Shown: positions 2,275 through 32,535 of the stretch, piece by piece
How the letters are laid out: each line of letters opens with the position of its first letter
How positions within the stretch are numbered: position 1 is the first letter of the stretch
Source: Isosphaeraceae bacterium
GTDB taxonomy: Bacteria > Planctomycetota > Planctomycetia > Isosphaerales > Isosphaeraceae
DNA length: 47,880 nt
Direction: 5' to 3'
Assembly (NCBI GenBank): GCA_025356475.1
Contig: JANXSX010000054.1
Span: forward strand, 1-47,880
Program-made: the position numbers and the translations under genes
The notes under the pieces: model-generated
What the model was told of the DNA's origin: nothing
Database searches by the model: none
The model's input: the letters and a program-made list of their open reading frames with translations, nothing else

Positions 2275-2356
2275 GTTCGCTCCCGATTGTAATACGACAA
2301 ACCCTACGTAGTGCATCAAAATTCGTGACAATCCCCAGCTCTAATCTTCAACTTAA

Positions 2357-3013: not shown

Positions 3014-3064
3014 GGAATTCCTGTTTTTGATCGATATACGTTTTCCCGGTAATCAAGACTAAAT

Positions 3065-5362: not shown

Positions 5363-5426
5363 AATAAGTCACCAGTAACGCATTTTGGTATGAAGAACGT
5401 TTGCGACGGAAGGACAATGATCTGCC

Positions 5427-6371
5427 CTACTTCGGGCGAGGTACGCGGGGATCGATGACCCGAGCGCTACGATACTCTGCGGAGTTGATGCGAATGGGGT
5501 CCAGCACCGACTCGTCAGTCACAAAAAGACGGGTGAGAATTTGCAATTCCAGCCACAGAGTGGCAAGTGCGAGCGGCATCATCAACCAACCTGCCAAATC
5601 ATGATATACCTTGTCGGCAACCGGCCCACCGGCGGTCACGTGTAAGAGGCCGGTTACAGTGATTCGGGTTACGTTCGCGAAAATCGCGATGGGAATGGCC
5701 CCAAGAACAATGAGAAATCGATCGAGGGGCGGTCGGTCAATGATCAGGGCTGCTGCAGAGGCATAGGCAAGGAACATCATCAACATGCCAAGGCCATTGC
5801 AAGCTTCGACGACGTTAATCTTCGCTTCCCCGATTGAAATGACATTTCCTTCCGCCAGAGCGGGTAAACCGAAGGTCTGCAACGCATAGTTGCTCGACCT
5901 GGTCGCGATCCACTGGAGTGGACTACCAACGCCGATCTCCGCTCGATACGGCAGAGGAATCATGAAAAACAAAAACGCAATCGCCGGCCAGCACCATCGA
6001 AGTAGAGGCATCCCACCAACAAGCACGGCGATTCCCGCCAAGCATGGAAGCAAGGCGGCTCCATCGAACCAAGTCAAGTAGAACCTTGCTCCGAAAATTT
6101 TCATCCCAATTCCCAGCAAAATCGGGATAAAGCCCCAAAGACTCGTCCTAAATTGTACAGCAGATAACATCGACCGACGGTGCCAGAGTAGAAAAAGGGA
6201 AAAAAGAGGAACGAGATATCCGTGCGAATACCGTGGGTCAACCGACCAACGATCGTGCATTTCAACGAGCGATGGCCAGAATAGCCATAATGTCGTCAGC
6301 CCAAGCACGATGCCGAGGATCATCAGAACAATTGATGTTTGCTTGCTTCTTGCTGTCAGATCCAAAATCAT
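5427..6371 (-). CDS. Exosortase (exosortase/archaeosortase family), left copy
   Basis: 314-residue polytopic inner-membrane protein with about eight hydrophobic segments and all three exosortase signatures. These are the nucleophile Cys191 in EACNGLGM, Arg236 in ANVTRITVTGLL and His257 in YHDLAGW. Exosortases act like transpeptidases on proteins with C-terminal PEP-CTERM-type tripartite signals, and are usually encoded with exopolysaccharide genes, as here. The N-terminal SVDPRYSHGYLVP motif is also typical. The ATG at 6371 follows AGGTGG. It is the first gene of the minus-strand module, so the promoter should lie in the AT-rich gap to its right. No protein in this window carries an obvious PEP-CTERM tail, so the substrate is not visible. 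Confidence 0.92.
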   Translation of the reverse strand: MILDLTARSKQTSIVLMILGIVLGLTTLWLFWPSLVEMHDRWSVDPRYSHGYLVPLFSLFLLWHRRSMLSAVQFRTSLWGFIPILLGIGMKIFGARFYLTWFDGAALLPCLAGIAVLVGGMPLLRWCWPAIAFLFFMIPLPYRAEIGVGSPLQWIATRSSNYALQTFGLPALAEGNVISIGEAKINVVEACNGLGMLMMFLAYASAAALIIDRPPLDRFLIVLGAIPIAIFANVTRITVTGLLHVTAGGPVADKVYHDLAGWLMMPLALATLWLELQILTRLFVTDESVLDPIRINSAEYRSARVIDPRVPRPK

Positions 6372-7784: not shown

Positions 7785-10700
7785 CTATGCGTTGGTTCTC
7801 CTTGGGCTGGACTTAGCAAATGAGTGACCCTTCGGGGCCGTGTGATGAAATTTACGAGGACCACCGGGTGTTTGTGCAGTGTGGCCTTGTGCGACTAGGC
7901 TGATTCTACGCCGGATCGTTGTCGTCTGAGTCGGTGCTGGGGCTGGTATGACCGCAGTTGTCGTCGTCCCGACTCCGTTCAAACCAGCACGATTGGATGT
8001 GGTGGTTGTCGATGTGACATCGATTGTTTGAGTCGGTGTAACGAGCTGGGGACTAATCGAAGTAGTTATAGCCCCACCACTCAGACTAAATGCGCCGCCA
8101 AGCTTCGACCCCTTTGGCCCCTTGAGATTGGCGGTAAGCTTGTAGTTGTAAGACCCGGGAATGGCAATATCAACCCCGCCCCAACCAAACTGATAGACCA
8201 AGGGACCACGTGTCGATCGCTGGCTGTACCAAGTCGCAGTTGAGCCTCTATAGATCGTGGGATCGACGTGTCCATCACCGTCGTAATCGAGAGGTACAGG
8301 AGTTTCGGTTCCGTCGATTGTTCCCGCGTTCATCGTGACGGTGTATGACGGGGAGCCCGGCGCAGTTGGTTGGATGATGAATTGACCAGTCGATGGTCGG
8401 TAGACTGCAAGTGCAGCCCGATGCTGACCAGCATAGTCCGCTGGGACAGGGATATCACCGGTTGCACCGAACGTGATCGGGGCGTGGTTGCCGGTTGATC
8501 CATCAATAAACCACTGACTCGTCTCAGGTCGGAAAACAGCAATTTGTGCTTTGCCCGTGCCATCGTAATCCGCAGTGACGGGAATGTCGTGACCTGCCCA
8601 TCCGTACTGCTTAACGACCCCACCTCCTGAGGAATAAGCGATGTAGAACGTGGCGGTTGTCGGACGCCAGACGGCCAGATCGGTCACTCCGTCACCGTCG
8701 TAATCGCCAGTTATCGGAATGTCGACGCCTGGCTGACCGAATTGAATGACCAAGTTGCCGAGCGATGGTCGCTGGATGAACCATTGAGCCGTTGAGGGAC
8801 GGAAGAGGGCGAGGTTGGTCTTGCCCTTGCCCTCAAAGTCGCCCTGAATCGGAACATCGCGACCGGGATCTGTGGCCCCAAATGTCGTCGTCGAGCTATA
8901 GGGAGTATTCCCGGGAGCCGAAGTAATGAACCAGTTCGTATAGCTGGGAGCTGAGGTATTGAACGGACGGTAAACGGCAATCTCAGCGGCCCCGGCCACG
9001 TCGTTGTTGTAGTCGCCAGTGACGGTGACGATCGTCAACGCAAAGCTTGGACTGAAAGGGCTGGGATTCCCTACGTTGTCGAAACCTCGAGCCTCCAAGG
9101 TAATTGAACCGTTGGTGAGGTCATTCGGAAGAGTGACGGTGTACACACCGGTGACAGCGTCCGCAATTGTCGTGGCAAGCGGGACATTCGACGGGGTACC
9201 GCTGATGACCTGATAAAGGTTGACCGTACCACCTAGACTGGCCGTTCCTGTCAATCGAGGACGGCGGCTGGTGGTAATGCCGTCACCTTGAATCCCAGTA
9301 TCATCTGCCGGGTTAATGTTCAGAGTCGGTGCCGGCGGGGCCGTCGTCTTGATGGTAATCGTGATCGACGGGTTAGGCAGGGAACTCGTGCCGTTCGCAT
9401 TCCGGGCACGTGCCAGGTAGGTATACGTGCCGTCGCCCAGAAAACCAGTCTGAGGCACACGGATCGTGTAATTCCCGAAGGAATCGCTGAGTCCCGAGTT
9501 CACGATGTTTTGGAGCGGCGTGTTGTCGAGGATCTCCACTGTAACGTTAGGATCTGTCTTCCCAGTCAGACGTGGGTTCTTGATCCGGGTAATATTCTGC
9601 CCAGCAGGACCTGTGTTATCCGAGGCTAAAAGCAGCAAGGTCGGTGTCACAGGAGGAACTGGCAACCCAAGGTTCGCCGACGCCAAGGTGAAAGACAATG
9701 TCGCAACATTGCCCTTCGTACCCGAGCCGTCGATGGACTGGATACCAATAACCTTGACCCCGTTCGACGTGAATGAACCGGCCTTGATCTGAATCGAGAA
9801 CTTGCCGTAAGCGTCTGAGACCCCTGTACCGATGATTTGGGTCACCGCTGCGGCTGCAATCGCGGCAGGATCGTTCAAATCGACACCGGTCAAATCGACC
9901 AGGTTGACGGTAACTTTGTAGCCAAAAGCCGTCTGGGCCGTGAATCCCTGAATAAATGGCGTGGGAAAAGAGATCTTGGGCAACCCATTTGAGCCAATCG
10001 TTCCTTGGCTACCACCGGGGGCCGGAAGTGCCGGATCGAGCTTGACCGAATTCTGGAAAACGATGGGTGCGAGCCGGATAGCGTACGCACCCCGTCCGTA
10101 AGTCGAGGCGAGCAGGATATTGGGATTACTCTTGGAATCAAACACCCCGGTTGTATTGTCGAAAGGACGACCGGTTGTAGGGTTAATGTTGCCCAACGCG
10201 AGGTTAAGGTCCGTCACTTGCGCGTTGGGAAAATAACCACCTTCTGCGAGCGAGCCGTTGGTGGCAATATCAGGGAAGAGGGTCCAGGTCACACCGTTGT
10301 CGAACGACCGATAAACCCCTGCATCGCCACCAACATAAAGTACAGGATGGGCAGGGCCGTTGGTGACCAGGAGGTTATCAGGAATAAAGTAGCGATAGTC
10401 AGCCTGAATTGTGGAGAGAGCACGACCCAACGTTTCTGTCAGGTTGACGTTGCCGAATGAGTTGTGCGTGATGGCGAACAAGTTGCCGGTGATCTTCACC
10501 CATGTCGCACCCGCCACCCGGCTATCCACCATGTGGAAAACGCCCGTAGAAGTTACGGCATATGCCTCACCACTTCCTCGTGTCGGGTTGGTGACGATCT
10601 TCATGACCTGGGAACCATCGAGCCCGGCGGAAATGTCAGCCCAGGCATTTGAGCCAGCGACTGAACCACCACCCGTTCGGGTCAGATAGATGCGTCCCCC

Positions 10701-13700
10701 TGAAGTACCGACATAAATAAAGCTGTCGGTCTGACCGTTGTAACCCGGTGCCGAAGGGTCTGGGGCACCAAATGCCTGAGCATTGGACTGGGTACCGTCA
10801 AGAATCGTACGGTCGGCAATGAGGTTCCAGAAAATGCCCTGGTTCTCAGTGCGGAAGATATTGCCCGTGGCACTACTGATCACAATCTGGTTGCCACCGG
10901 GGCTGATCGGGTTAACCGCGAAGTTCAACACAGCCGCGAACGGCCATTGAGGATCTGGAACGCTGCCTTGACCACTCTGTTGGATCAGGCCAAATGTTCG
11001 ACCGGTCGCGTCAACTTGGAAGAAGTCGGTGGTATTGCCACCGCAGCAAGGCCAGCGGTAGTTGAACGACGTTCCGCTGCCAGTCTGGTCAGTCGCCTGG
11101 CCTCCACCGTCACCGCCGGGCCCCGTATATCTGAGGTTGCCCGATGTCAAGATATTCGGATCCGACTGTGGAAAACCGTTGTCTTGAAGCGTGAAGTAGA
11201 AGAGCGCTGAAAGCTGCGCTGCCAGACCCGCGTTCACCGACGGTTGACTCGCGCCATAGTAGATCTGGTTGATCTGGAGGTTGCCGTTTCGGCCACCCGA
11301 GACCACGTTTACGGTTCCAGTCGTCCCACTCAGATCGGACGATGTCAAACTCTGGTTGACAACGAATCCGTTGGGAGCGGCTGCGGTTGAAGATTTTCCG
11401 AGACTATGAACAAATGTACCATCGCCACGATCCACTGCTGTGAAAACGCCTTGGTCAGCACCGAACACAAATCGAGAGAGTCCCGTGAGTGGATCCTTGA
11501 ACGCGAACACTTCGTGTTGGTCAGTGTTCCCTTCAACGGCGTTATCCCAAGGGATGAACCGAGCCCCCTGCCCTGTGTTCGTGAACTTCAACGTATCGGT
11601 AACGAACGAAGTCGCACCACTCTGGAACGGATTGGACGGATCGCGGAGAAAGTTTTGAATGGGGTCGGAAAGTGGGCTGTAAAAGGATGGAGGAAAGTCA
11701 CTCTTGGGATTGGCTGGGGTCTTCAGAATGACCGAACCCTGAGCATAAGACAATCGCTGCCCACCATCAGCATTGTTCTGGGCCAGGAAAAACGAATGTG
11801 CATCTTGGAGGTAGGTGATATCGACACGGATCAAGCCTGAAGGAGCACCGTCGCGGGATCCACCAACGTAGACAACCTCAGGATGGTTCGGATCGGCGAC
11901 CAAGCTAATGTCGTAGTTCGCCTGCCCAAAGTTGAAACCGCCAGTCGGATCGTAATCAGGCGAAGCCGGATCGTTGGTCGGAACGATCGGGATGCTCTGT
12001 GGCGTCGCGGGATTTGTAAGTGTTGGCAGTCGGATCGCCGTCCAGTTCTGACCGAAATCTTTGGTGACATAGAGACCGTCGAAGTGGCTGTCAGGAGTGG
12101 CCACAGCAGCGTAGAGCCACCCTTGGTAACCGATATCTTGGGTCGCATTACCTGTGAGTGCCGGCTTCGCCAACACAATGCGGCCCTTGGCCCCGTTGGG
12201 AGTTCGGGGGGGATTATCGACGGGAACGGGGGGGTTATTGGAACGATCAATGTCGCGGGTCAATGGGTCGCCGACCCCACCGGCCATCAGGTTCCAACTG
12301 CCGCCACCGTTCGGGCTTATATACACACCCTGACCACGGAGCGCAGCGTAAAGAATGCGGAGATTGCCTGTCGGATTGCTAACTGCGTCAATGGTGCCGC
12401 TGTTGGGGTCAAGCGTGACATCAGTCGCCTGGCCAACGAGCACGCGTGTCCATGTTTTACCCGTATCCTGGCTTCGCCAGATACCGGCCTGGTTGGCGTT
12501 GCCGGAAAGCGTTGCGTAAACGATCGTCTCGCCGCTCGGGGTCGGTCGAGGATCAACCACGATCGTGAACGAAGTTGAGCCTAAGAAGATATGGTCGCGT
12601 AGCGGCGAGGTGATTGCGAGAGGAATGCCCGCCGCATCGACGTTTGTCGTGCTATCGAGGACGGTCCACGTCCCTCCCCCATCCAGACTTCTAAGGAAGC
12701 CGACACCTTGGGAGCCGGTGTCACCTTCTCCCGTAGCCGCGAACACGATTGTCTGTTTGGGATCGTTGTTGCGTCCAAAAGCTGTCAGGCTGCCAATATT
12801 CAGTGAGAACGTGGGGCCGTAATCGGTAAGCGGGATCCAAGTGGGGCCGTTGGGGTTCTCGGTCAGGAAATTGCTCGTCTTCCAGACACCACCGCTAGCA
12901 CCAGCAAGGAAAGCCGTATTGCCCGAGGGGTCCGAAGGATCAAGAACCATGCCGCCGATACGACTTGACCGGACGCCCGCACCATTGGACTCTCCCGAAA
13001 CCGCGCTTGGTCCAGCGGCACCGCCGATGCCGGCCGGACCGACTGCTGTCCAGGTCGTGGTTGAGGTCGAGTTGGTCGGGTCCAATGTGAAGAGACGGAA
13101 ACTGGCCACAGTCTGGTCGGCGACCGTCTCGCCAAGGCCTGAGTTCGATTGTGCCTTCGACAGACCAAGCGACCAAGCAGACAATGTCCCTACAAGACTC
13201 GTCGAGAAGTTCTGAATCGTCAGGGTCCAGGTGCCCTTGGCGTTCTTGCCAATCAAGTTGGCGAGTGGAGTCTGCGGTACGAACTGACCAATGAACGGAG
13301 GTGCTCCGTTTTGGATCAGAGTGGCCGCCGAATCACTGAAAACTGTATTCTGAAAATTCTTCCGAGGCGTGGGACCAACATTCCCGACCTTCGTAAACAA
13401 CTTAACAATTGTGCCGTCGGGCGCGGTAAGGAATGCCGCCAGATCCGGATCATTCGGGAAGGAAATATTAAGGCTCAGAGTCGCGCCCTGAAGAACGTAA
13501 TCATCGCTGATGACCAAGGTGGAGCTAATCGTACCGGGAACCGGCTGGCCACTCACCAGCTTTGCAGTCTGCGTGGTGATTGGGATGGCGGTCGAATTGT
13601 ACGTCTTGACAACTTGCGCCCCACCCGGTGCAGGGTTGCCTCGCAAGAGATCAAGCCCGGCGTTCTGATTGTTGTCGATCAGGTCGCCGCCGTTCGCACC

Positions 13701-16700
13701 CGCCACGGCTTGGATATTGGGTCCGAGGATGACTGAGTACGTACCATTAAGCAATTGCTGTGGGAATGTAACTCGGAACGTCTGATAAACGTTGGGTGTG
13801 CCGAAATCGGCTGCGGAGCTTGTATCCACTGTGGCAGTTAAAGACCAGGCGCTGATCTGGCTCGATGCCGTTAGAGTCCAGACTCCGCTCAGAGACTTGC
13901 CAACCGCGGTGGGAATCGAAACAACCACGTCTGCGTCAGAAGCAAGATTTGGAATCGTATACGTCGTTCCATCGGGACCGATCAATGTCAGGGATGAGTT
14001 GTCAGCACCGAGAAGAGTCGCTTTGAGCTTCAACGCGGCGAGTGTAAACGTTCCGCCGCTACCACCAGACCCGACAGGTGGTGTGATGAGCAGTGCCGAG
14101 GGCGAGCCTGCGGTCAACAGAACGTTGGGAGATCGGAAGTCATAGACCGGCACCGGGGTCACGGTAATCTGAGGTGTGATCACCAATGACCAGTTAGTCA
14201 GAGAACCGACACTACCGCTGACCACATCCTGAATCCGGAGCGTCCACTTGCCGTCGATGACCTTGCCCTTGAGCGTAGCAAGGGGAGAAATCGGGCGATA
14301 GACGTTCGTGAACGGTGCTACGCCCTGGGCGAATGTCAGCCCTGCGGTATCATCGAAGGTCGTGTTCGTCAAGTTGGCGCCCGCGCCCGCAGCCTTCGAG
14401 ATCAACGGAATCTGGGTGCCATCGGGGGCGATCAAGGTAACGATCAAGTTGCTGACGTTCGGATGAGCGATGCTCAGCGTGATCGCCAGATTGTCGATCT
14501 TAAAGGTGCCAGCCGAACTCGGAATCGTCAAAGTCGAGTCGAGCAAGGCACCCGTGTTATCAGGAATCGTTGCACCAAGATTTGTGGCCTTGTATGCCGG
14601 ACCAGCCTGGAAAATCGTCGGACCGTTAATGACCCCAAGAGGTCCCTGAATGCGCAACACGTCCGTATTGTCGAACGTAGCTGTGTTCATGTTACGATCA
14701 AACGTAACGTCGAGCGAACTCACGCCCTGGTTCTGCACGAGATTGTCGAACGAGGCTGAAGTGTTCACAACACTCGTATCAATTGCATGCGGACCTGAGA
14801 CAATGATCGGCACCGTGGTGTTGTCGAATGGAGCCGAAATTGTGTTGCCCGACAGAGGCTTAGGATTCAGATATGCGTCAGCCGCGCTCCCAGGCGTGCC
14901 GTCGGCGTTCTGGTCCATCAAATTGCCGGTTTTCCCTGGAACGAGCTGGAGAGTGCCCGTATCGATCGTGAGGGACCAATCCTGCAAGAATCCGCTGTCA
15001 AGGGAGAAACCGTCGTTGATCTGCAGGGTCCAATTGCCATTGGCTGTTCCAGCGTTCAAGCCCGATAGGGGCTGATCGGGCAAGAAAGTCCCCGTAAACG
15101 GTGCCGTTCCGAATGAGATCGGTATCAAGGCAGCGTCGCTGAAGATCGTATTTGTGTAATTTTGGCCACTACCGCCATGGTTCTGCGAGAGAACGACATT
15201 ACTTCCATTCGGAGAGGTCAACGAAATCGTCAAATCGAAATCGAATGTGTGCGTCAAGTTGATAGAAACGATGACGGACGCAATGACACTCCCTGCTGGA
15301 AAAACATTGACAGGCATCACTGAAACGGTCGTATCTTGCGCGGCAATCCCGGAGCCGCCTGTACCAACTGGGGGGACACGAAGGTTTAGACCAGTCAAGC
15401 TGGTCGTTTGGGGATTGTTGTTGGGAACAACCGCAACCGTCGCTGGGCTACGCAGGCGATCTTTGATCACCGGCTGGATTGCATACGTATAAGTTCCGAC
15501 GCCCGACTGCGGTGACTGCAGCCGTACGAGCCAATCGATAGGTCCACTGGCAGGGTTGTTATTGGTCGGAACAATGGATCCCACCGGAATGTTCTGTGCC
15601 ATCGAGCCATTTGCAGGCTGGAAGGTGACAGTCACAGCCGAGGTTGGGAACGTATTGGGGTCGATTGAACGATCGAACGTCAGGCCGAACCCCGTGAACT
15701 GCTGGGTACCGTCCGATGCAAACGTGTTGTTGTAAAGCTGCCCGCTATCATTCTGAGCCTTGACTGGCCCCATCGTGCTGGCGATGATCCGCGGTCCGGC
15801 TGCAAAGTGAATCGCGTTTGTCAGGACCGACAACTGGCCTTTACCATTTGCGAGACCGTTCGCGTTCCCAACCCAAAGTGGATATGCGACGCCATTGGCA
15901 ACCGCGAGTCCCTGATAATTCCCATAGCCCCGATCACCATCTGAGTTCGGATCCCCACCTGACTGGTTCTCAGGAATAGGCCCAATTTGGAGCGGATTCC
16001 CTGTAATCGCGTCAACGGCCGTCTGGCTGAAGTTGGTGTACACCGAAGAACTGAACGTCTGACCTCCATCAATGCTCGCGCCGATCGTGGTCACGACCCG
16101 AGCACGCGATGCATCGTCGCGGGCATCGAGGTAGCTAAGAACAAGAGTACCCGTTGATTGATCTACGGCCAACTGGGGTTGAAACTGGGGTCGACCGCTC
16201 AGCGCGAACGCCGTCCCGTTCGCAAGCCCGGCGAGTGTGCCGGCCCCTGTGTAGCCGTCGATTACGGCATCGTCATCGTTGCTAGGAATCGGAACACCAC
16301 CAAGGGCCGTATTGACATTCTCGAAACTCCAGCTCGCCCCACCGTTGTCCGAAAACTTGACGAAGATGTCGGTGTTATCGGCTTGGTTGCTTCCGATGAC
16401 ACCGAAGCGAACGTTGTCCAGAATATCAACGTAGGCGACATAAAGTCGGCCTTGGAACTGGCTAAAGGAGCCGAGCGTATTGTCAGACGCAATCACAGCG
16501 CCTGGTCCAATTCCCTTGGACGTGGCCAGGGTCGTCACCGGGTAATTCCCCGGAGTTACCGCACCGCGCACGGTGGTCCTACCAACGGTTGCCGTCCCGA
16601 GGTTAGCGTATCCCCCCCCCGCTGTCGGGACGAGACGCGCAACTTGAATGATATCAACGGGCGGACTCTGGTTGCTTCCGCTGCCAAAGTCGTCGAAAAC

Positions 16701-17696
16701 GACAGTGACCTGACCACCGGTGATCGCGGGTAGACCTGGTTGGACTAAGCGATTCTGGCTAATGGTGATCTTGGGAGACGAGTACTGCTGAATCGGATCC
16801 CCACCAAAGTTGCCACCGCTAACCCGAATCGGAGTACTGAAACTCGTACCACCGTTGGTGGATTGGAGCACTTCGATGGTGTAGCGATTCCAAGGGTTGG
16901 GAGGGGTTGGGGGCGGTGGAGTATCCTTCACCCAGGCAATGTGGATCCGATTGGTAAATGCATCCGTCTGTGTTGCACCCGTACTGGGGTCGGTGATGGT
17001 CGAAGGGTTAGTGTCGACCGCAAGTGTAGCGTCACGCACGCCTGGGAAATTAAATGCAACGGTATTCTGCGGCAGATTTGTCTGGTTCCAGAAGTAAACA
17101 AGATTCGTAGTTGCCCCCGACGGTGCATTTCCAGCAACGGTATATTTGCTAAGAAACACGACTCCCGCGCCGTTGTCAGAATTGCGCTGTGTTGTCAAAA
17201 TATAAAAGTTATTGTTTGCGTCCCATGCCCCAACGGCGTCATCGTTTTCCTGGTATCTCAGAGGTGGGTTCGCGGTCGAGGGAGTGGCGCCAGGTTCATC
17301 GATCAGTATCTGATTACCCGTGGGCAATCCAACGGTCGTCCACGACTGGCCACCGTTCGACGAGAACTTGGCCCCGACGGTAAAGAATGAGTTGGGTGAT
17401 TGGATGTTGGCGTTCCGCACGCCGAAGGTTGCCACCAACTGACTGGCATTGTTGGGGTTGATGGTAATTGTCGGATTGTTGTCGTTGACCTTGCCATCAG
17501 ACGTATTAAATCCATCCACCACCGTTGGGCTCTTCGTAACCAACAACGCCGGCAGTGTCGCCATCAACGTGCGGGCTTCCAAGTTCTCGAGCGCCAGTGT
17601 GCGGAGCCTCGACTTGCGCAACGAAGCCTGTCCACTGTTGTTCCGCGCCCGGCCCTGGGCCTCGCGACTTTCCAGCTTGGTCTTGACCGGGCTCAT
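7785..17696 (-). CDS. Giant secreted multidomain protein: Asp-box propellers, P-domains, Ig-like and calcium-loop repeats
   Basis: 3,303 residues from the ATG at 17696, which has GGAGAGGA just upstream; a frame extension 71 codons further has no such site. The N-terminus (LENLEARTLMA, about 33-43) is the planctomycete leader motif of very large exported proteins (LEPR-XLL type). Then: an Asp-box propeller region, about 50-630 (SNGGQSW, SDNGGASW, SIDGGQTF); four proprotein-convertase P-domain-like modules at about 750-915, 1035-1175, 1195-1295 and 1380-1520, each ending near GxWTLxIxD...W; a second long propeller, about 1540-2540 (SLDGGGTW, SPNGGGSW, SFDNGVTW), sortilin/glycoside-hydrolase-74-like; Ig-like modules at about 2580-2890; and six VCBS/FG-GAP-like repeats at about 2895-3180 of the form DIPVxxDYDGDGxxDLAVxRPxT. 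The tail is basic, with no PEP-CTERM or LPXTG signal. It is probably a surface or matrix adhesion or binding protein. No catalytic set is evident; hydrolase activity cannot be excluded. A run of nine G (16612-16620) lies in the coding strand. Confidence 0.9.
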   Translation of the reverse strand: MSPVKTKLESREAQGRARNNSGQASLRKSRLRTLALENLEARTLMATLPALLVTKSPTVVDGFNTSDGKVNDNNPTITINPNNASQLVATFGVRNANIQSPNSFFTVGAKFSSNGGQSWTTVGLPTGNQILIDEPGATPSTANPPLRYQENDDAVGAWDANNNFYILTTQRNSDNGAGVVFLSKYTVAGNAPSGATTNLVYFWNQTNLPQNTVAFNFPGVRDATLAVDTNPSTITDPSTGATQTDAFTNRIHIAWVKDTPPPPTPPNPWNRYTIEVLQSTNGGTSFSTPIRVSGGNFGGDPIQQYSSPKITISQNRLVQPGLPAITGGQVTVVFDDFGSGSNQSPPVDIIQVARLVPTAGGGYANLGTATVGRTTVRGAVTPGNYPVTTLATSKGIGPGAVIASDNTLGSFSQFQGRLYVAYVDILDNVRFGVIGSNQADNTDIFVKFSDNGGASWSFENVNTALGGVPIPSNDDDAVIDGYTGAGTLAGLANGTAFALSGRPQFQPQLAVDQSTGTLVLSYLDARDDASRARVVTTIGASIDGGQTFSSSVYTNFSQTAVDAITGNPLQIGPIPENQSGGDPNSDGDRGYGNYQGLAVANGVAYPLWVGNANGLANGKGQLSVLTNAIHFAAGPRIIASTMGPVKAQNDSGQLYNNTFASDGTQQFTGFGLTFDRSIDPNTFPTSAVTVTFQPANGSMAQNIPVGSIVPTNNNPASGPIDWLVRLQSPQSGVGTYTYAIQPVIKDRLRSPATVAVVPNNNPQTTSLTGLNLRVPPVGTGGSGIAAQDTTVSVMPVNVFPAGSVIASVIVSINLTHTFDFDLTISLTSPNGSNVVLSQNHGGSGQNYTNTIFSDAALIPISFGTAPFTGTFLPDQPLSGLNAGTANGNWTLQINDGFSLDSGFLQDWSLTIDTGTLQLVPGKTGNLMDQNADGTPGSAADAYLNPKPLSGNTISAPFDNTTVPIIVSGPHAIDTSVVNTSASFDNLVQNQGVSSLDVTFDRNMNTATFDNTDVLRIQGPLGVINGPTIFQAGPAYKATNLGATIPDNTGALLDSTLTIPSSAGTFKIDNLAITLSIAHPNVSNLIVTLIAPDGTQIPLISKAAGAGANLTNTTFDDTAGLTFAQGVAPFTNVYRPISPLATLKGKVIDGKWTLRIQDVVSGSVGSLTNWSLVITPQITVTPVPVYDFRSPNVLLTAGSPSALLITPPVGSGGSGGTFTLAALKLKATLLGADNSSLTLIGPDGTTYTIPNLASDADVVVSIPTAVGKSLSGVWTLTASSQISAWSLTATVDTSSAADFGTPNVYQTFRVTFPQQLLNGTYSVILGPNIQAVAGANGGDLIDNNQNAGLDLLRGNPAPGGAQVVKTYNSTAIPITTQTAKLVSGQPVPGTISSTLVISDDYVLQGATLSLNISFPNDPDLAAFLTAPDGTIVKLFTKVGNVGPTPRKNFQNTVFSDSAATLIQNGAPPFIGQFVPQTPLANLIGKNAKGTWTLTIQNFSTSLVGTLSAWSLGLSKAQSNSGLGETVADQTVASFRLFTLDPTNSTSTTTWTAVGPAGIGGAAGPSAVSGESNGAGVRSSRIGGMVLDPSDPSGNTAFLAGASGGVWKTSNFLTENPNGPTWIPLTDYGPTFSLNIGSLTAFGRNNDPKQTIVFAATGEGDTGSQGVGFLRSLDGGGTWTVLDSTTNVDAAGIPLAITSPLRDHIFLGSTSFTIVVDPRPTPSGETIVYATLSGNANQAGIWRSQDTGKTWTRVLVGQATDVTLDPNSGTIDAVSNPTGNLRILYAALRGQGVYISPNGGGSWNLMAGGVGDPLTRDIDRSNNPPVPVDNPPRTPNGAKGRIVLAKPALTGNATQDIGYQGWLYAAVATPDSHFDGLYVTKDFGQNWTAIRLPTLTNPATPQSIPIVPTNDPASPDYDPTGGFNFGQANYDISLVADPNHPEVVYVGGSRDGAPSGLIRVDITYLQDAHSFFLAQNNADGGQRLSYAQGSVILKTPANPKSDFPPSFYSPLSDPIQNFLRDPSNPFQSGATSFVTDTLKFTNTGQGARFIPWDNAVEGNTDQHEVFAFKDPLTGLSRFVFGADQGVFTAVDRGDGTFVHSLGKSSTAAAPNGFVVNQSLTSSDLSGTTGTVNVVSGGRNGNLQINQIYYGASQPSVNAGLAAQLSALFYFTLQDNGFPQSDPNILTSGNLRYTGPGGDGGGQATDQTGSGTSFNYRWPCCGGNTTDFFQVDATGRTFGLIQQSGQGSVPDPQWPFAAVLNFAVNPISPGGNQIVISSATGNIFRTENQGIFWNLIADRTILDGTQSNAQAFGAPDPSAPGYNGQTDSFIYVGTSGGRIYLTRTGGGSVAGSNAWADISAGLDGSQVMKIVTNPTRGSGEAYAVTSTGVFHMVDSRVAGATWVKITGNLFAITHNSFGNVNLTETLGRALSTIQADYRYFIPDNLLVTNGPAHPVLYVGGDAGVYRSFDNGVTWTLFPDIATNGSLAEGGYFPNAQVTDLNLALGNINPTTGRPFDNTTGVFDSKSNPNILLASTYGRGAYAIRLAPIVFQNSVKLDPALPAPGGSQGTIGSNGLPKISFPTPFIQGFTAQTAFGYKVTVNLVDLTGVDLNDPAAIAAAAVTQIIGTGVSDAYGKFSIQIKAGSFTSNGVKVIGIQSIDGSGTKGNVATLSFTLASANLGLPVPPVTPTLLLLASDNTGPAGQNITRIKNPRLTGKTDPNVTVEILDNTPLQNIVNSGLSDSFGNYTIRVPQTGFLGDGTYTYLARARNANGTSSLPNPSITITIKTTAPPAPTLNINPADDTGIQGDGITTSRRPRLTGTASLGGTVNLYQVISGTPSNVPLATTIADAVTGVYTVTLPNDLTNGSITLEARGFDNVGNPSPFSPSFALTIVTVTGDYNNDVAGAAEIAVYRPFNTSAPSYTNWFITSAPGNTPYSSTTTFGATDPGRDVPIQGDFEGKGKTNLALFRPSTAQWFIQRPSLGNLVIQFGQPGVDIPITGDYDGDGVTDLAVWRPTTATFYIAYSSGGGVVKQYGWAGHDIPVTADYDGTGKAQIAVFRPETSQWFIDGSTGNHAPITFGATGDIPVPADYAGQHRAALAVYRPSTGQFIIQPTAPGSPSYTVTMNAGTIDGTETPVPLDYDGDGHVDPTIYRGSTATWYSQRSTRGPLVYQFGWGGVDIAIPGSYNYKLTANLKGPKGSKLGGAFSLSGGAITTSISPQLVTPTQTIDVTSTTTTSNRAGLNGVGTTTTAVIPAPAPTQTTTIRRRISLVAQGHTAQTPGGPRKFHHTAPKGHSFAKSSPRRTNA

Positions 17697-18536
17697 GTCG
17701 TCCTCTCCGCAATTGTGACGACGCCACTGGTTATGGCGAACGTAAGGAAGATGATAGCAACTGGGGTGGATAGACAAGAGGCGTGGACTACCCGAAACAT
17801 GCTCGTCACTTCCCCTCGCGTCAAGTTTTCCGGAAGCGAGTTGAGCATTGCGGCGAAAAGTCGCGCCATTTCTGATCAGCCTCAGCCAAATCGTGAGGTA
17901 GATGATCAAATTTCTTGACCGTATCTGATATCATGCACGCACGGTCGCACTGTTGTCAAGCGTCGAGTAGCAACCACTGTGAGTTTCTTGACTGGACTGT
18001 GTAATCGTCACAATCCTTGGCCCCGTTTGCAACGACTACTTAAATGCGATGGTTGCTGACCCCATCCCGGAGAACGCGATCCGACCAAGCCATAGTGAAG
18101 GTCTTTAGCGAGAAGAATAAGTGTCCGATTTCGATCACAGTTGGTCATTTGACTTAGTAGATGCTCGCTTGGGTTAAACGAACCGAGCCCCCCTGCTCCG
18201 GGAATCAATCGCGGACGCGCAGACATGGTCGCACCGCGCCGCTGAGCCCCGCCCACAAACCGACGATTTGCATTTTGATAAACGCGAGCGTGCCGCGAGC
18301 AGAAACCAGGGGGACGGCATGTCCAAGGTTGCGTACTGCTCCCTACGTGAAGGATGAGAATCCGTCATTAATACCTAAAGCCACTCCCCTGCTCTGACTC
18401 AGAGTCTGGCGTCATCCTGCTCTCGCGATGTGTGCGTGTCTTAGCATCAAGTGCGATCGACTGAGTTTCAGAGCCATTGCTGTACCTAGACCACGCCAAC
18501 ATAAAATTGACGTATGTCGCTGTTGGCCTATTGGTG
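17697..18536. other. Upstream region of the giant gene, no gene seen
   Basis: About 840 bp with only short overlapping frames that lack ribosome-binding sites and recognisable content. It should hold the promoter of the giant gene near its left end. No RNA gene or repeat was recognised here. Confidence 0.5.
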
Positions 18537-18537
18537 C

Positions 18538-19530
18538 CTTGGTAACTTGCTACCTAGACACGTTGTAATACTGGTAGCAAGTATCCCTTGTTTGCTTTTT
18601 TCATCGCCACCAAGCTACATGCGACTCCAAGGCTTCCATACTATCTTTGTCTCTTGATATAGCATGCAACGTAGTCTCAATGCACCTAGTGAGCCACTGC
18701 TACCAAGTTCCGTCGTCAGCCGCTCTACCATGTTGACACTTTTTATTGCTCGGCAGCGTACCAACTTGCCCTGGTGCCAAGACAGCTTGCCACTATTGGC
18801 GTCTGTGCTTTCTTGATACAACGTACTGCTTGATTCCCATGCCCATCGCTGCCACGGTCTCTTGGTATTCATTGTGCCAATATGCCAAGGCATATTGGAT
18901 CTATCTTCGGCAGTGTGAAGTAGACTCCTTGGTCTAATGGAACATCACACCGGGTCGAGCCTCGAGGGCTTAATGGTGGCGATTCACCAAGGATCTCGGG
19001 CCTTCGAGGCTCGTCCTAATCGCTGGAGAGTCGGGTGCTGCGATTCGTCGAAGCAAACTTGAATGAATGGTGTGTACATTGTCGTTGTGCCAATAGTGTC
19101 GAGTAGCCCAGCTACGTAGGTCTCAAGGTGCCTTGATTCCAATGTTTAATGGCAATCTTGTTGCCGGCTGTCAATTTTTCAACGTAATACGCGGTCATTG
19201 GGCGGTGATATCTATTGCACCTTTGCTTCAATGTTTCCATTTTGTCTTGCATCCATTGTTTGTAGTCGTTTCCATCAGATTGGTTCTCTTTGTTAATTGA
19301 CGCCTTGTACCCCTTTGTTCATGGCTCATTACGCTCCTTGGTACCTGGTTGACTTGGTGACAGGGTTTCTTGGTGTTTGTTTATCCTTGTGCCAAGTGTG
19401 CCATTTTGCATTGGCACCTTGGTGCGTTGTTTTTTGGTTACATCGCCTGATTGGACCCTTGCCAAGTCGTTATCAATGCACGTCGCTTGCAATGTGCGCA
19501 TAATTCGACTCAACTAGTTTCCAAGCTTGG
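18538..19530. promoter_or_regulatory. Candidate partition site (centromere): cluster of CTTGG/CCAAG sites upstream of parA
   Basis: In this 1-kb stretch without a gene the pentamer CTTGG or its complement occurs 17 times, in both orientations: starting at 18538, 18610, 18627, 18703, 18777, 18861, 18885, 18927, 18987, 19336, 19353, 19369, 19392, 19417, 19462, 19521 and 19526. Thirteen fit CTTGGYR. The last two form the palindrome CCAAGCTTGG, 73 bp before the parA start. About two would be expected by chance. Several ATTGGYR variants lie between them. In small-ParA (type Ib) partition systems the centromere usually lies upstream of parA, and the ribbon-helix-helix partner binds many short direct and inverted motifs. 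The location and pattern fit that, but binding is inferred. Confidence 0.6.
18957..19012. repeat. Imperfect hairpin inside the CTTGG cluster
   Basis: GAGCCTCGAGGGC (18957-18969) pairs with GCCTTCGAGGCTC (19000-19012) at 12 of 13 positions. The loop holds a second small stem, TGGTG/CACCA. It splits the site cluster into a left group (18538-18992) and a right group (19336-19530), with a site-free stretch of about 340 bp after it. It could be a structured site or a short RNA; nothing decides this. Confidence 0.35.
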
Positions 19531-19602
19531 GCCGATACTGCTTAGGTTCATGAGCATTTCGTGTTGTTGCTCGTCACATTACAGATGAGCGAGGAGGATC
19601 GA

Positions 19603-20409
19603 ATGCGAAGCGTTGCCGTCACGAATGCCAAAGGAGGTGTCGGCAAGAGCACATCAGCGATCAATTTCGCCGCTGCACTTGCAGAGCAAGGGCATCGAAC
19701 CCTGCTCGTTGACGCGGATCCATCCGGGAATGCGACCCTAGGCTACTTCCCCACCGGTGGTTCCATCATTGGTCTTGCGGACATGCTCTTGGACGGCGTC
19801 CCACTCGCCGAAGCCGCGTTGGCAACCGATATCCCCGGAGTGGATGTATTACCGCCTGGTGATCGACTTGGAGTTTGCTCCGATCAGATGGGGAGTAGCC
19901 AGGGATTAGGGCAGGGGAGGGAGTTCCGGATCAGGCGACTGTTAAAAGGGGTCATCGGATATGACTTGGTGATTCTTGACACCAGTCCGGTTCAGACTCC
20001 GCTCAATGTCGCGATCCTTTATGCCGTCTCCGAGGTTTTGATCCCGATCGATCCCTGTGTCGCAGCTCTTGCAGGTGTTCGTGCTCTGGAGGTTCTGATT
20101 CGAAACGTCAGTGAGTTCCGCCAGGAGTTTACGGACTCAGGTCCCCTTGCCATAAGCGGCGTTCTTATTACCCGTGCGGATCGGACCCTGGTCTCTCGAC
20201 AGGTCGAAGCGGAAGTTCGCGCGTACTTCGGTCCACTTGTCTACCAGAGGGTGGTACCCGCTTCCGTGAAGTTTCGTGAAGCGTATGCCCGTGGCATACC
20301 CCTCGTGAAATACGATCCATATGGAGGAGGTGCCCAAGCCTACCTCGAAGCAGCCGAGGTCTTTTGGAACCGGGGTGCTGATTCTGCCAACCAACTTGCT
20401 GTCGGCTAA
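19603..20409 (+). CDS. parA: ParA-family partition ATPase (small, type Ib-like)
   Basis: 268 residues from the ATG at 19603, chosen because GAGGAGG lies five bases upstream. An in-frame ATG at 19585 overlaps that site and is less likely. The protein starts almost directly with the deviant Walker A motif KGGVGKST (10-17), followed by Walker A' LLVDADPSGN (34-43) and Walker B LVILDTSP with Asp126. There is no N-terminal helix-turn-helix extension. That is the layout of type Ib ParA/MinD-like ATPases, which segregate plasmids by forming gradients on the nucleoid. Without the DNA-binding extension, repression of the operon would fall to the partner protein. It is 59 bp upstream of the ribbon-helix-helix gene and directly downstream of the CTTGG/CCAAG cluster. 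Closeness to repA and iterons argues for plasmid segregation rather than a chromosomal role. Confidence 0.92.
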   Translation: MRSVAVTNAKGGVGKSTSAINFAAALAEQGHRTLLVDADPSGNATLGYFPTGGSIIGLADMLLDGVPLAEAALATDIPGVDVLPPGDRLGVCSDQMGSSQGLGQGREFRIRRLLKGVIGYDLVILDTSPVQTPLNVAILYAVSEVLIPIDPCVAALAGVRALEVLIRNVSEFRQEFTDSGPLAISGVLITRADRTLVSRQVEAEVRAYFGPLVYQRVVPASVKFREAYARGIPLVKYDPYGGGAQAYLEAAEVFWNRGADSANQLAVG

Positions 20410-20468
20410 TACGTCGTGAGTCGCTGCTTCGGTGTTTCACTTCAATACTAGGCGTCAAGGAGATGGTC

Positions 20469-20933
20469 ATGGCGGGCGCTATCAGACGTGGGGGCATCCC
20501 GGGGCCCGAGAGTCGCACAGGATTGGTTCGCCCCACGATGACGGAGGCGGAGTTCGAGCGTCGGCAGAATGCGTCTCCGTCTGAACCATCCGATGTCGTG
20601 GACCCATCGTCGACAAATATCATTCAATCTACCGGAGCCTCCCCCGTGATTGAGTCCGACTCGGCCCCACGAACCCGATCACGCGCAACCCGAAGCAAGC
20701 CAGTTAAGCCACGCCGTGTTCAGCGCATGTTCGCTCTTGAAGAAGATCTGGATAAGAAACTTTGGCTCTATGCGATTCACATGGGCAAGGATCGTTCCGA
20801 TGTTGTAAACGATCTGTTGCGGCCAGTCGTTGCGTCAATGGTGCTTTACGACTCGCGTGACCGCCGTTCATCCCGAGTCGTCGAATCGGAAATTGATCGA
20901 GGTGTTGATGGGGAAGGGGGGGGGCCGGTGTGA
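20469..20933 (+). CDS. Ribbon-helix-helix partition protein (ParG/omega-like centromere binder)
   Basis: 154 residues. The ATG at 20469 has AAGGAG six bases upstream; the ATG at 20463 abuts the site directly and is rejected. The first about 75 residues are Pro/Ser/Arg-rich and probably disordered. They are followed by a basic patch (TRSRATRSKPVKPRR) and a compact domain, RVQRMFALEEDLDKKLWLYA then DRSDVVNDLLRPVV, which fits a ribbon (strand) plus two helices. Unstructured N-tails that stimulate the ParA ATPase, usually through an Arg, are known in ParG-type partners. The name is by context and fold pattern, not a clear family match. The C-terminus crosses a run of nine G (20916-20924), so slippage there would change the last few residues. 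It is tail-to-tail with repA, 12 bp apart. Confidence 0.72.
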   Translation: MAGAIRRGGIPGPESRTGLVRPTMTEAEFERRQNASPSEPSDVVDPSSTNIIQSTGASPVIESDSAPRTRSRATRSKPVKPRRVQRMFALEEDLDKKLWLYAIHMGKDRSDVVNDLLRPVVASMVLYDSRDRRSSRVVESEIDRGVDGEGGGPV

Positions 20934-20949
20934 GGTGGCCATTCCTCAC
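20930..20949. terminator. Possible bidirectional terminator between par operon and repA
   Basis: GTGAGG (20930-20935) and CCTCAC (20944-20949) form a hairpin with an 8-nt loop that covers both stop codons of the convergent genes. Neither side has a real T-run, so efficiency is doubtful. Confidence 0.3.
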
Positions 20950-22460
20950 CCCTTGTCAAAAAGCTGTCCCTGTTCCGATGTGAATCGTTGAAGCTCGCCA
21001 CTCACCAGCAAAGCCTCCAGCTTCACAAGACACAGAGGTTCTAACATTTTTTTGAATCGACGCAGACCTGGGTTCTCGCGTTTGACAGCATCTAGGATTG
21101 CTTCACGGCGTCCGGAATCGAGCGCATCCCATTGGACTTTCAACTCCACCTCTCGGCGTGTCGTCTCCTCCGATTCGGCCTTAACTCTGGTCGCATCTGC
21201 ATCTTTTGCCTTTTCGGCAGCCTTTGCTTGGGCAGTTGACTTTGCCTTTTCCTCCGTACTTGTAAACCCCCCTGGTGCCTGATAATCAGCACGGATCGAT
21301 GCAACGAGGTATCCAGCCGGATTTTTTGCCACTCGCTTGTCACCGTTTTTGACGAGCCAATCAAAGACCTCAAGCTTCGTTCGGATCCGTTCTGCGGAAT
21401 GCAAAGTCACTAACTCGGCGGAAGTCTTGGGCGTGACCCCACGCGCGGTCAACAGTTCGATGAGTTCTGAAGGCTCGGTCTTGGGAGTGGAGTCGACCCC
21501 AGATGCCTGACCACGTATCAGAATGATCCGCCAGCAACCGCGTGAGACGTAGGAGTAACGCTCCTCCGAAGTCAGCGGCTCCAAAAACCCGAGCTGTTCG
21601 AGTTCTTCGAGCGCTGGCTTGAGCCGTCTCTTGAGTTCAGTCGGCGGATAGGACCGGCTCATCCCGATGTGCTCGCAGGCAAGCGTTTTCAGATCAAAGT
21701 CGAGTCGAGTTCGTCGGTAGAACCGTTTGTCCAAGAAACGAAACATTCGCTTGGTGGTCGGTAACCGTAGCTTTAGGTAAAACTCGAGGTCGAGCTGCTT
21801 TAGATTACCACTCTGGAAGCTCTGAAAAATCACCTCGTTCCATTTAAAGCTCGAAAGCGGCAGAGGAGCACGCTCATTCTTTGGGGGGACTTTGCTACCT
21901 TTGGACGAAGACTTTGAGTTTTTCCCGGTCTTTCGTCGTTCTCGATCGTAAAGCGTCACGTTGTCAAGAACGTGGAAATTCTCGTCGACCCAACTTTTTG
22001 CCGTGTTGTCCCACCAAGCATTCTCATACATCAAAGTCACGCCGACCCAGCGGTTGAGCGACTCCTCAATGCGTCGATAGCTTTGCCCACTTTGAGGCCA
22101 GCCCAGAAGCTCAATTAGCTCGTATCTTGAGAAAGAAACCCGAGGATTGTCGAAATTACTCCGCCGCTTTGTGAGCTGAATTAACCCTACAAGTAGCTCA
22201 TCATCAAGCGAGGTTGGCAGCCCGTGTTTGGGCGTACCCATGATCGTGAGCCGTCGCACAATTGGCTCACTGTCCCTGCGCTCAAGTTTGTCCTCGAAGA
22301 CCAGTGTTGTCTGACCGTCTGGTACCCGGTCAGTGAGTGCCGCGATGGGAAACTCGGCGAGATTGAGTTCATCTTTCCAACCGTAATCGGTCGATTGCGC
22401 ATTCTCCTCATTCGATGCAAACCCGCCACTCTCTTCAATCGTTACATCCTCTTCAGTCAT
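20946..22460 (-). CDS. repA: Plasmid replication initiator, RepA (RPA family)
   Basis: 504 residues from the ATG at 22460 (GAGGG seven bases upstream); a frame extension of 25 codons reads into the AT-rich upstream region and has no such site. Features of the replication initiator protein A family include NLAEFPIAAL near the start, RLTIMGTPKHGLPTSLDDEL, the winged-helix segment FSRYELIELLGWPQSGQSYR and the later RMFRFLDKRFYRR/CEHIGMSRSYPP block, which reads as a second winged helix. A Lys/Ala/Glu-rich coiled-coil precedes the C-terminal KVQWDALDSGRREAILDAV segment. Such proteins bind iterons, open the origin and repress their own gene. The iteron array lies immediately upstream (22.6-23.0 kb), as expected. 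This gene is the strongest single argument that the window is a plasmid. C-terminal boundaries are by eye. Confidence 0.85.
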   Translation of the reverse strand: MTEEDVTIEESGGFASNEENAQSTDYGWKDELNLAEFPIAALTDRVPDGQTTLVFEDKLERRDSEPIVRRLTIMGTPKHGLPTSLDDELLVGLIQLTKRRSNFDNPRVSFSRYELIELLGWPQSGQSYRRIEESLNRWVGVTLMYENAWWDNTAKSWVDENFHVLDNVTLYDRERRKTGKNSKSSSKGSKVPPKNERAPLPLSSFKWNEVIFQSFQSGNLKQLDLEFYLKLRLPTTKRMFRFLDKRFYRRTRLDFDLKTLACEHIGMSRSYPPTELKRRLKPALEELEQLGFLEPLTSEERYSYVSRGCWRIILIRGQASGVDSTPKTEPSELIELLTARGVTPKTSAELVTLHSAERIRTKLEVFDWLVKNGDKRVAKNPAGYLVASIRADYQAPGGFTSTEEKAKSTAQAKAAEKAKDADATRVKAESEETTRREVELKVQWDALDSGRREAILDAVKRENPGLRRFKKMLEPLCLVKLEALLVSGELQRFTSEQGQLFDKG

Positions 22461-22531
22461 TGCAAAGCCCTCAGTCTGTGTAATCGTATCGCGTTTGAGT
22501 CTATTTCTACTCGAAAACGAACAAAACAACA

Positions 22532-22559
22532 ACAAAATACAGCCAGGCGGCTGTTTTGT
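22532..22559. promoter_or_regulatory. Inverted repeat between repA and its iterons, possible operator
   Basis: ACAGCC-AGGC-GGCTGT (22539-22554) is a perfect 6-bp inverted repeat, extended outward by ACAAAA on the left and TTTGT on the right with one bulged T. It lies 72-99 bp upstream of the repA start in a very AT-rich tract (about 22505-22605). That fits either an autoregulatory RepA operator or part of the unwinding region. On the plus strand it also looks like a hairpin plus TTTTGTCTTTT, but no plus-strand gene precedes it. Confidence 0.4.
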
Positions 22560-22635
22560 CTTTTAGTCTTAACAAAAGTCTAAAACAAATTCTCAGCGCC
22601 GTAAACCCTTTGAGAATCAAGACTTACAGAGGCTA

Positions 22636-22990
22636 ACTATGTCCGGTTAATCGCTAGTGGTATGTCCGAACTATCGTGAATGCACGCCCTAAGTATGTCC
22701 GGTTAATCGTGAAAAGTATGTCCGGTTAATCGTGAAAAGCCCCTCTAAGTATGTCTCAAGCATCGCTATGGACAAATGGCAACTATGGTTCAACTATCGC
22801 TACGATGCAGTTGTGCATTAGGTGCGTCGCTTTGAAGTATGTCCGGTCAATCGCTATGCACAAACGCTCCCTTAGAATCGCCGTTCTACTATGTCTGGTC
22901 AATCGCTATGGACAGAAGAATAGGTAGGCGTCGAGTCTCGATCGGCGATTGGAGTGATCCTTGGGGGACGAACTATGTCTGGTCAATCGT
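22636..22990 (+). repeat. Iteron array, predicted plasmid replication origin
   Basis: Direct repeats, all in one orientation, with consensus ASTATGTCYGGTYAATCG. Good copies start at 22636, 22691, 22714, 22835, 22888 and 22971. Weaker ones start at 22661 (ATCGTGAA tail kept), 22747 and 22781, with a last degenerate one near 23058. Two copies are exactly 23 bp apart (22691, 22714), about two helical turns. Several share a trailing ATGSACA. The AT-rich tract between the array and repA is the natural unwinding element. CTATGCACA at 22854 is one base off a DnaA box. Iterons beside a RepA gene are the standard layout of theta-replicating plasmids. A 123-codon frame crossing the repeats is an artefact of them. 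Confidence 0.85.
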
Positions 22991-23321
22991 GAATGCACGA
23001 CTTTCGGTAGCCCCAGCGATGCGAGATTGGGACTTTCCGGCTAGGTCTCGTCCAGCAAACCATGTCCCAAACGTCGTGAGCGGCGTGGCCAGACTTGGAT
23101 CGCCTGGAATCGTTACAATCGCTATAATCGGTAATTGCTTCCGCGTGACAGGCTTGTTTTGGTCCAAAAGCGTTGGTCGAGATCGGTGTCTGCTCACAGC
23201 GATGGCCTAGAAGCTCCTTAAAATCGCACAGGAGCGATCCACGGGGCATGGTTGGTGGTTTGCTGGTCGCGAGTTGACCAAGCTCTCAGGAGCCCTCTGA
23301 GGCGTTGTCCTGATTCGTCGG
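22991..23321. other. Non-coding flank of the iterons
   Basis: About 330 bp between the iterons and the stop of the FHA gene. No gene, RNA or repeat was recognised apart from the degenerate iteron-like AACCATGTCCCAAACGTCGTGA near 23058. Confidence 0.5.
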
Positions 23322-29317: not shown

Positions 29318-30115
29318 ATGCTTCCTACCGACAGCAATACCGCCCCCATTAGCGTCCCACCTTCCACAAAATCTCCTGCATTGGAATCGTTATCGAGTCG
29401 CCGCCTGTTGATCTCTGCTTTACTCATCTGCGGTTTGCTCATTGGCTCAGGGATTTTGCGAGCGGGGCAAATGCGGCGGGTTGATAAAATCCTTGAAGAA
29501 GGAAAACACTCGCCATTTTCCTTGAAAGAGCTTCCAATCGATCTCGGCGTGTGGAAGGGGGAAGAGGCTGAACTCGACCCACGTATCGCGGCTGGCACGG
29601 GCTCAGTGGATCATGTTTTTAGACGATATGTGAATCAGCTCACGGGCACGGCGGTGGACATGATCGTACTCTACGGGCCATCGACTGACATGTTCATTCA
29701 CGCGCCCGAGCGGTGTTACCCAGCCGCTGGATATGTCTTGGGTGATGGACCGGATGCTCAGGCAATTCCTATTGGCGATGGCCACGAAGCTGCGTTTCGC
29801 TCGATGGTCTATCTCAAGGGGAGCGAAGGCCGTGCAGAACGCCAGGAAGTTTATTATTCGTGGCGATATCGCAATCAGTGGTCTCCCGATGTTGGGACAC
29901 ATAAGGAATTCGAGCGGATTCCAGGCATGTATAAAGTCCACCTTGCCAGGGCGGTTACTCCTCAAGAGCGGCGAGAGATCGATAACCCTTGTCGGCAACT
30001 ACTGAGCGTTCTCATTCCGGAGATCGAGCGTCGTGCGATTGAAGCGCGGGGTAAGGCGGCAGGCAAGTCACAAAGTCAACCTGTCGAGGATCCCTCGGCG
30101 AAGCCATCGACTTGA
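29318..30115 (+). CDS. epsI: EpsI-like exosortase-associated protein (DUF3485), right copy
   Basis: 265 residues: a 27-residue Ser/Pro-rich N-terminus, an anchor helix at about 28-47, then the DUF3485 domain with HAPERCYPAAGY (Cys133) and EFERIPGMYKVHLARA. The Pro/Lys-rich C-terminus (about 235-265) is extra relative to the left copy. It is the first gene of the plus-strand EPS operon. The start has no clear ribosome-binding site, but no better in-frame start keeps the membrane helix. It shares the His-Cys signature with the left paralogue but otherwise aligns weakly, so the two modules are old relatives or were acquired separately. Confidence 0.88.
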   Translation: MLPTDSNTAPISVPPSTKSPALESLSSRRLLISALLICGLLIGSGILRAGQMRRVDKILEEGKHSPFSLKELPIDLGVWKGEEAELDPRIAAGTGSVDHVFRRYVNQLTGTAVDMIVLYGPSTDMFIHAPERCYPAAGYVLGDGPDAQAIPIGDGHEAAFRSMVYLKGSEGRAERQEVYYSWRYRNQWSPDVGTHKEFERIPGMYKVHLARAVTPQERREIDNPCRQLLSVLIPEIERRAIEARGKAAGKSQSQPVEDPSAKPST

Positions 30116-30186
30116 ATTCTAAGGCTAGTTTTTGTCTATTTTCAATCAACGCCAATGGCGTGCATATAACAGGAAGCTTCCTAACT

Positions 30187-32493: not shown

Positions 32494-32535
32494 TCCCAAT
32501 CTTCTCCAGGTTTTTTAGCTTTCGAGGTCTAGATT

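Follow-up and report, generated by a model that had tools for sequence, protein, structure and literature searches.

The locus examined here raises the question of what a stretch crowded with CTTGG sites is doing directly upstream of a parA gene, and of which protein might read it. The window, that is, the whole 47,880 bp analysed, is the entire contig C179 of a 5.9-Mb genome in 232 contigs, and no overlap was found between the contig ends. Because it carries parA, a small unannotated protein and a RepA-like initiator, C179 probably represents a plasmid, whole or in part. The parA gene (19603-20409, plus strand) encodes a small Walker-type ATPase of 268 aa (Pfam AAA_31, 2.5e-28; CbiA, 9e-22). 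It is followed on the same strand, at 20469-20933, by the gene of its putative ribbon-helix-helix (RHH) partner, the presumed reader of the repeats described below, which was assigned by alignment and by comparing a model of its core with solved structures; an ATG at 20463 is an alternative start. The rep gene (20946-22535, minus strand), a replication initiator matching Pfam RPA (PF10134, 5e-11), lies tail to tail with it. The contig also carries polysaccharide/exosortase genes: a set comprising DUF3485 (EpsI-like), AAA-kinase and exosortase EpsH genes at 1492-6371 (minus strand) and a similar set at 29318-33480 (plus strand) suggest a duplicated polysaccharide/exosortase locus on one contig. 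A 3,374-aa ORF just upstream of the repeats (7785-17909, minus strand) contains proprotein-convertase P-domains and bacterial Ig-like domains and is probably a giant surface protein.

From CTTGG sites to an octad array

The sequence-only reading of this DNA had counted 17 CTTGG/CCAAG sites in 993 bp (18538-19530), 13 of them fitting CTTGGYR, and our recount gave the same numbers. In 2000 dinucleotide shuffles of the 993 bp the mean was 2.32 sites (sd 1.49, maximum 8), while the rest of the window holds 3.37 sites per 993 bp, with 9 in the best other tile. The excess is thus real, although the density given earlier as roughly eightfold over chance was set slightly high, the figures being 7.3-fold against the shuffles and 5.0-fold against the rest of the window. 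We agree that the field is gene-free, having seen no convincing gene in it; a 92-aa ORF at 18615-18893 (minus strand) was judged mechanical. No RNA family was found in 17800-23000 and no sigma-70-type promoter in 18400-19700. The palindrome CCAAGCTTGG, which had been singled out near parA, is indeed present at 19521-19530, 72 bp upstream of the start codon of parA (ATG at position 19603). Taken by itself it is nothing out of the ordinary, since the genome has 16 copies and the backward control 17.

What the earlier reading overlooked was an 8-bp lattice, with 14 of the 17 CTTGG/CCAAG sites in register and the same repeat also occupying the intervals between them. The 7-bp CTTGGYR proposed as the unit has to be replaced by a self-complementary octad, CCWWGGYR, in which CTTGGYR occupies positions 2-8, and the sites occur in both orientations because the octad is near-palindromic. 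Tandem copies of this octad fill the field almost continuously, in steps of 8 bp and sometimes 9. The unit was learned with a hidden Markov model (HMM) that was trained on 20 related loci only, the window being held out, as C(.53) C(.81) W W G(.77) G(.50) Y R; 9-bp steps account for 21%. No symmetry constraint was imposed on the model, and the unit correlates with its own reverse complement at 0.987. A period of 8 outperformed periods of 6, 7, 9, 10 and 11 on both the training data and the held-out window. In the window the HMM recognized 18521-18942 and 19049-19528, every other stretch being at most 82 bp long; the field scored 62 nats over background compared with 1.3 for the best of 300 shuffles, and none of the 1-kb tiles away from the field scored above 0. 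Exact octad patterns are uninformative because the units are too degenerate: a genome-wide search for CWWGN4CWWGN4CWWG gave 17 matches against 34 in the backward control.

The Viterbi path places 113 units at 18496-19528, joined by 88 steps of 8 bp and 23 of 9 bp, in two blocks. The upstream block (18496-18942, about 54 units) has a mean posterior of 0.99 over its 422-bp core, 18521-18942, and had nearly identical limits when the HMM was run on the reverse strand. It is separated by a 106-bp break (18943-19048), which contains an imperfect 17-bp inverted repeat (18953-18969 and 19000-19016), from the downstream block as delimited by the HMM (19049-19528, 480 bp, about 59 units), which ends 74 bp before parA. 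Base autocorrelation in the field is highest at lag 8 among lags 4-12, with z of 7.7 in the downstream block and 4.8 in the upstream block, and the array of the window is the weakest of the 21 arrays compared (z 6.8 versus 6.9-15.9 elsewhere). Adjoining the end of the array is a CCGATA block (19532-19537, plus strand), which 11 of the 21 loci have at 69-75 bp upstream of parA; it may belong to the control region of that gene.

Conservation of the array and the genes it accompanies

The family sample consisted of 45 Isosphaeraceae genomes, the relatives including Paludisphaera, Aquisphaera, Tautonia and MAGs, and it provided 20 other parA-RHH cassettes whose parA is 64-79% identical to that of the window. 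All 21 cassettes found in Isosphaeraceae have a CTTGG-rich field directly upstream of parA. The enrichment beside parA that the earlier reading had proposed to look for in related plasmids was therefore found at all 20, and its claim that a centromere-like site of the ParA/RHH pair lies upstream of parA is borne out by octad arrays at 20 of 20 relatives' cassettes. When 415 CTTGG sites were aligned by their context, the C and the G returned 8 bp to either side, and the core-to-core distances pooled over the 21 loci fell at 8, 16/17, 24/25, 32-34 and 40-42 bp with the gaps between almost empty. Such spacing in multiples of 8 bp identifies the field as a tandem 8-bp array with occasional 9-bp steps, of which CTTGG is the best-matching fragment. 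In complete loci the array is about 0.9-1.6 kb long.

Uniqueness was scanned over the window, three complete plasmids (111,833, 97,874 and 92,134 bp) and 400 kb of other contigs of the same genome. Each complete plasmid has one array, located just before parA, and the longest chance segment in the 400 kb was 113 bp, so that the concern about an equal density elsewhere was answered by the absence of the array from the rest of the three plasmids and from the 400 kb. Breaks of 19-130 bp interrupt the arrays of several relatives; they share no common sequence that we could see, and the break at 18943-19048 was accordingly rejected as a conserved element.

Arrays from different plasmids can hardly be aligned (median identity 46%), and the lattice is kept in all of them. 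Within each of the three closest pairs, conservation along the octad peaks at positions 2 and 5 (0.885/0.898, 0.770/0.759 and 0.662/0.688), the spacer positions 7 and 8 are conserved at 0.47-0.71, the octad register is maintained at 80-91% of aligned positions, and gaps of at least 8 bp are mostly whole units (8, 9, 16 or 17 bp). As judged by these comparisons, the insertion and deletion of whole octads together with the slower change at C2 and G5 indicate that the array is under selection.

Both genes downstream of the array bear on who its reader might be. The ParA has its Walker A motif, KGGVGKS, at residues 10-16, its AAA_31 match starts at residue 1, and it lacks an N-terminal HTH extension. 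As an HTH domain could not be accommodated at this N-terminus, the reader is most naturally sought in the protein encoded next, which consists of a conserved N-terminal tail, a variable linker and a C-terminal core (20700-20867) of predicted RHH fold. In the alignment the tail carries the motif RRGGIPGPESRTGL.RP.MTEAEFERR with R8, R9, R18 and R23 invariant, and its low pLDDT suggests that it is probably disordered. The full-length model gave one weak structure match, and for this reason the core was modelled alone; the solved structures ranked closest to it are, with few exceptions, RHH proteins (TacA, Arc, CopG, NikR and ParG, Z 3.8-4.9), with ParG at 3.8 and the best Z overall, 4.9, being middling. 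The assignment rests on a monomer model with no visible strand. The protein matched no Pfam family, and its profile matched no PDB sequence, that of ParG included. The core model nevertheless supports the RHH partner named in the sequence-only reading, and by its predicted fold the protein would be an RHH centromere-binding protein. A search for its relatives beyond the family, in 392 genomes across the phylum with up to 9 candidates scored in each, returned two matches, both within the family. No parA was seen around the distant RHH relative G032:C117.

An array of this kind could also be a replication origin, its units serving as iterons for the adjacent RepA-like initiator. Tandem repeats are frequent in plasmid origins, and rep adjoins the cassette in most relatives. 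However, no octad array is present on four plasmids that have a rep of about 72% identity to that of the window (68-72% by local alignment) and an unrelated ParA, at only 25-29% identity, and where rep is located 3-5 kb from parA (G018, G007 and G042) the array stays beside parA. The unit also varies between systems together with the RHH protein, as described below. The origin explanation is largely refuted by the first of these observations and we regard it as very unlikely; because plasmids that share rep and have an unrelated parA lack the array, we assign it to parA and its RHH partner. In G040, G028 and G042, 5-7 rep matches occur on different contigs, which suggests that several genomes of the family have many related plasmids per cell.

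Octad words at more distant loci

We also examined ten loci of the family with a more distant ParA (34-41% identity). At nine of them a significant period-8 array directly precedes parA (z 7.5-15.4); at the remaining one, G028:C5, the period is only weak (z 3.0), and the unit fitted to it de novo was judged unreliable. Small RHH-like partner genes follow parA at these loci, and two of the five partners tested matched Pfam RHH_5 at E 0.0008-0.0017, below the curated cut-off. The units fitted de novo are largely self-complementary (correlation 0.81-0.99) and spell different words, which accompany different strands in the RHH protein: C-Y-N-N-R-G with strand GRK (G024:C32, G011:C4 and G001:C3), R-R-G-C-Y-Y with GRR (G030:C136 and G011:C5), C-T-N-N-A-G with PWK (G033:C10 and G034:C41), and G-R-C-G-Y-C with PRT (G028:C8). 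The words of the octad lattices thus comprise YCWWGR, CYNNRG, RRGCYY, CTNNAG and GRCGYC. Unit distance tracks the identity of the RHH core (Mantel r -0.56, p 0.0003) and, when only the strand is considered, r is -0.35 (p 0.025); common descent of whole loci may contribute to this correlation. Five genomes have two arrays each, and their words differ by distances of 0.28-0.31, like those of unrelated arrays, compared with 0.07-0.12 for the three closest pairs.

These words also bear on the idea that the reader is some other, chromosomally encoded protein, nucleoid-associated or structural, rather than the RHH partner. It can be entertained inasmuch as the unit is known from statistics alone. 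A host factor would be expected to use one word per host, however, and what we find is different words on different plasmids of one genome, each word following the plasmid's own RHH protein, so that of the alternatives considered here we give this one the least credence.

The sequence-only reading had suggested a new centromere class for planctomycete plasmids. The part of this proposal that holds is a site of ParA/RHH type, and the part that does not is a class defined by CTTGGYR, as related ParA/RHH pairs use other octad words. We lean slightly towards a distinct Isosphaeraceae centromere class made up of self-complementary octad lattices of 0.4-1.6 kb, with one word per plasmid lineage matched to the strand of its own RHH protein; co-resident plasmids would differ in their words and so avoid incompatibility, and the whole would constitute a natural RHH-DNA recognition code.

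With the same statistic, some 90 further ParA loci, drawn from other planctomycetes and other phyla and many of them maybe chromosomal, gave period-8 z of at most 4.3. The apparent periods at the Geobacteraceae locus L106 and others were set aside as coding or low-complexity repeats. In an Eggerthellaceae parA locus (L096, 5520-6000) many palindromic CGGTATA/TATACCG repeats lie upstream of the gene with a period-8 z of 4.3, and they are possibly an independent array of a like kind. Within the family, G011:C4, G011:C5 and G001:C3 (L195, L203, L199 and L211-L213) are small plasmid-like contigs that start at parA, and their far ends bear octad arrays with other words.

The array as a probable partition site and its nearest known counterparts

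The most likely function of the array is that of a type Ib partition site. The features of such systems that we see are a small ParA without HTH, a small RHH-like partner encoded downstream and a repeat site upstream of the par operon, and we consider it highly probable that the field serves a type Ib ParA/RHH system as its centromere (a site of the parS/parC type), with RHH dimers coating the octads. From this arrangement we infer RHH binding, cooperative coating, stimulation of ParA, autorepression and segregation. Most probably each octad would take up a single RHH dimer, whose two-fold axis would fall on the WW step. The YR step is a two-fold axis as well, and adjacent dimers would make contact there, allowing about 1 kb to be coated cooperatively in the way that MetJ coats tandem 8-bp met boxes. 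Many N-terminal tails with their invariant arginines would then be presented to nucleoid-bound ParA-ATP; the tails may stimulate the ParA ATPase, with hydrolysis pulling the plasmid, and RHH protein on the units closest to parA may repress the parA-rhh operon.

The last of these steps could instead be the main one, the array being chiefly an operator at which RHH dimers repress parA-rhh while segregation uses another site. The end of the array lies 61-117 bp before the start of parA in all 21 loci, as an operator might, and type Ib RHH proteins double as repressors (PMC5016525, PMC7308502). More than 100 units over 1 kb are far beyond the need of a repressor, however, and no second array of CCWWGGYR was found on the three complete plasmids. 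We therefore think it unlikely that repression is the array's principal role, and we retain the partition site as our reading.

The nearest centromere to the octad array is TP228 parH, in which box plus spacer repeats every 8 bp. Like the ParF-ParG-parH system of that plasmid, the cassette has a small ParA, a downstream RHH partner with a flexible tail and a site upstream of the operon (PMC7308502, PMC5016525). The boxes of parH are degenerate tetramers with AT-rich spacers between them (PMC7308502, PMC5016525); the octad array is likewise made of short degenerate boxes, and coating by RHH dimers, a feature of parH, is proposed here. In contrast to parH, the octad is self-complementary, its spacer positions 7 and 8 are YR rather than AT-rich, the units number more than 100, and different systems have different words. 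The RHH partner has no detectable sequence relation to ParG.

The delta-omega/parS system of pSM19035 shares the contiguous short repeats and the RHH partner (PMC9499535). Its heptads are 7 bp long, directional and natively arranged in a group of seven, unlike the self-complementary 8-bp units, more than 100 in number, seen here, and a 7-bp model fitted the octad arrays worse than an 8-bp model on training and held-out data. For ParA to be activated in the omega system, a minimum of four repeats in contiguous order is required (PMC9499535), a need that fits the value of contiguity among the octads.

The closest DNA geometry is that of E. coli MetJ, whose RHH dimers bind met boxes. These boxes are described as tandemly repeated 8-bp palindromes (Davidson and St Girons 1989, as cited in PMC3274233), and the metF promoter has five of them for the repressor MetJ (PMC3274233). 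They differ from the octad array in being a repressor site and not a centromere, with no relation in sequence or gene context.

In the open-access literature on RHH centromeres and tandem arrays we did not find the octad unit, the array length or the diversification of words described. The RHH centromeres that we know of are short, and the earlier remark that the array is longer than usual is justified, its length being far above that of any of them. A 1-kb lattice of more than 100 weak self-complementary sites probes the number of RHH dimers in an unbroken row that a ParA system is able to exploit, and it is a site able to drift base by base with only the lattice kept. Words that are matched to RHH proteins and never common to two plasmids of one genome (five cases) make both a recognition code and plasmid compatibility testable.

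Our results also supply a likely ParA partner for plasmids of the pPALBO1 type. By their PLSDB matches, pPALBO1 (111,833 bp; G027:C2, L137-L142) and pPL62-1 (97,874 bp) carry the cassette and the array. Ivanova et al. 2017 (PMC5352709) noted ParA and rep, placed ParB on another plasmid of Paludisphaera borealis and suggested that the ParA of pPALBO1 works with it; a term search of their text for repeats and centromeres did not turn up the array. On pPALBO1 the gene beside parA, annotated as hypothetical in PLSDB, was overlooked in that account, and we consider this adjacent RHH gene a likelier source of the ParA partner than the ParB of the other plasmid.
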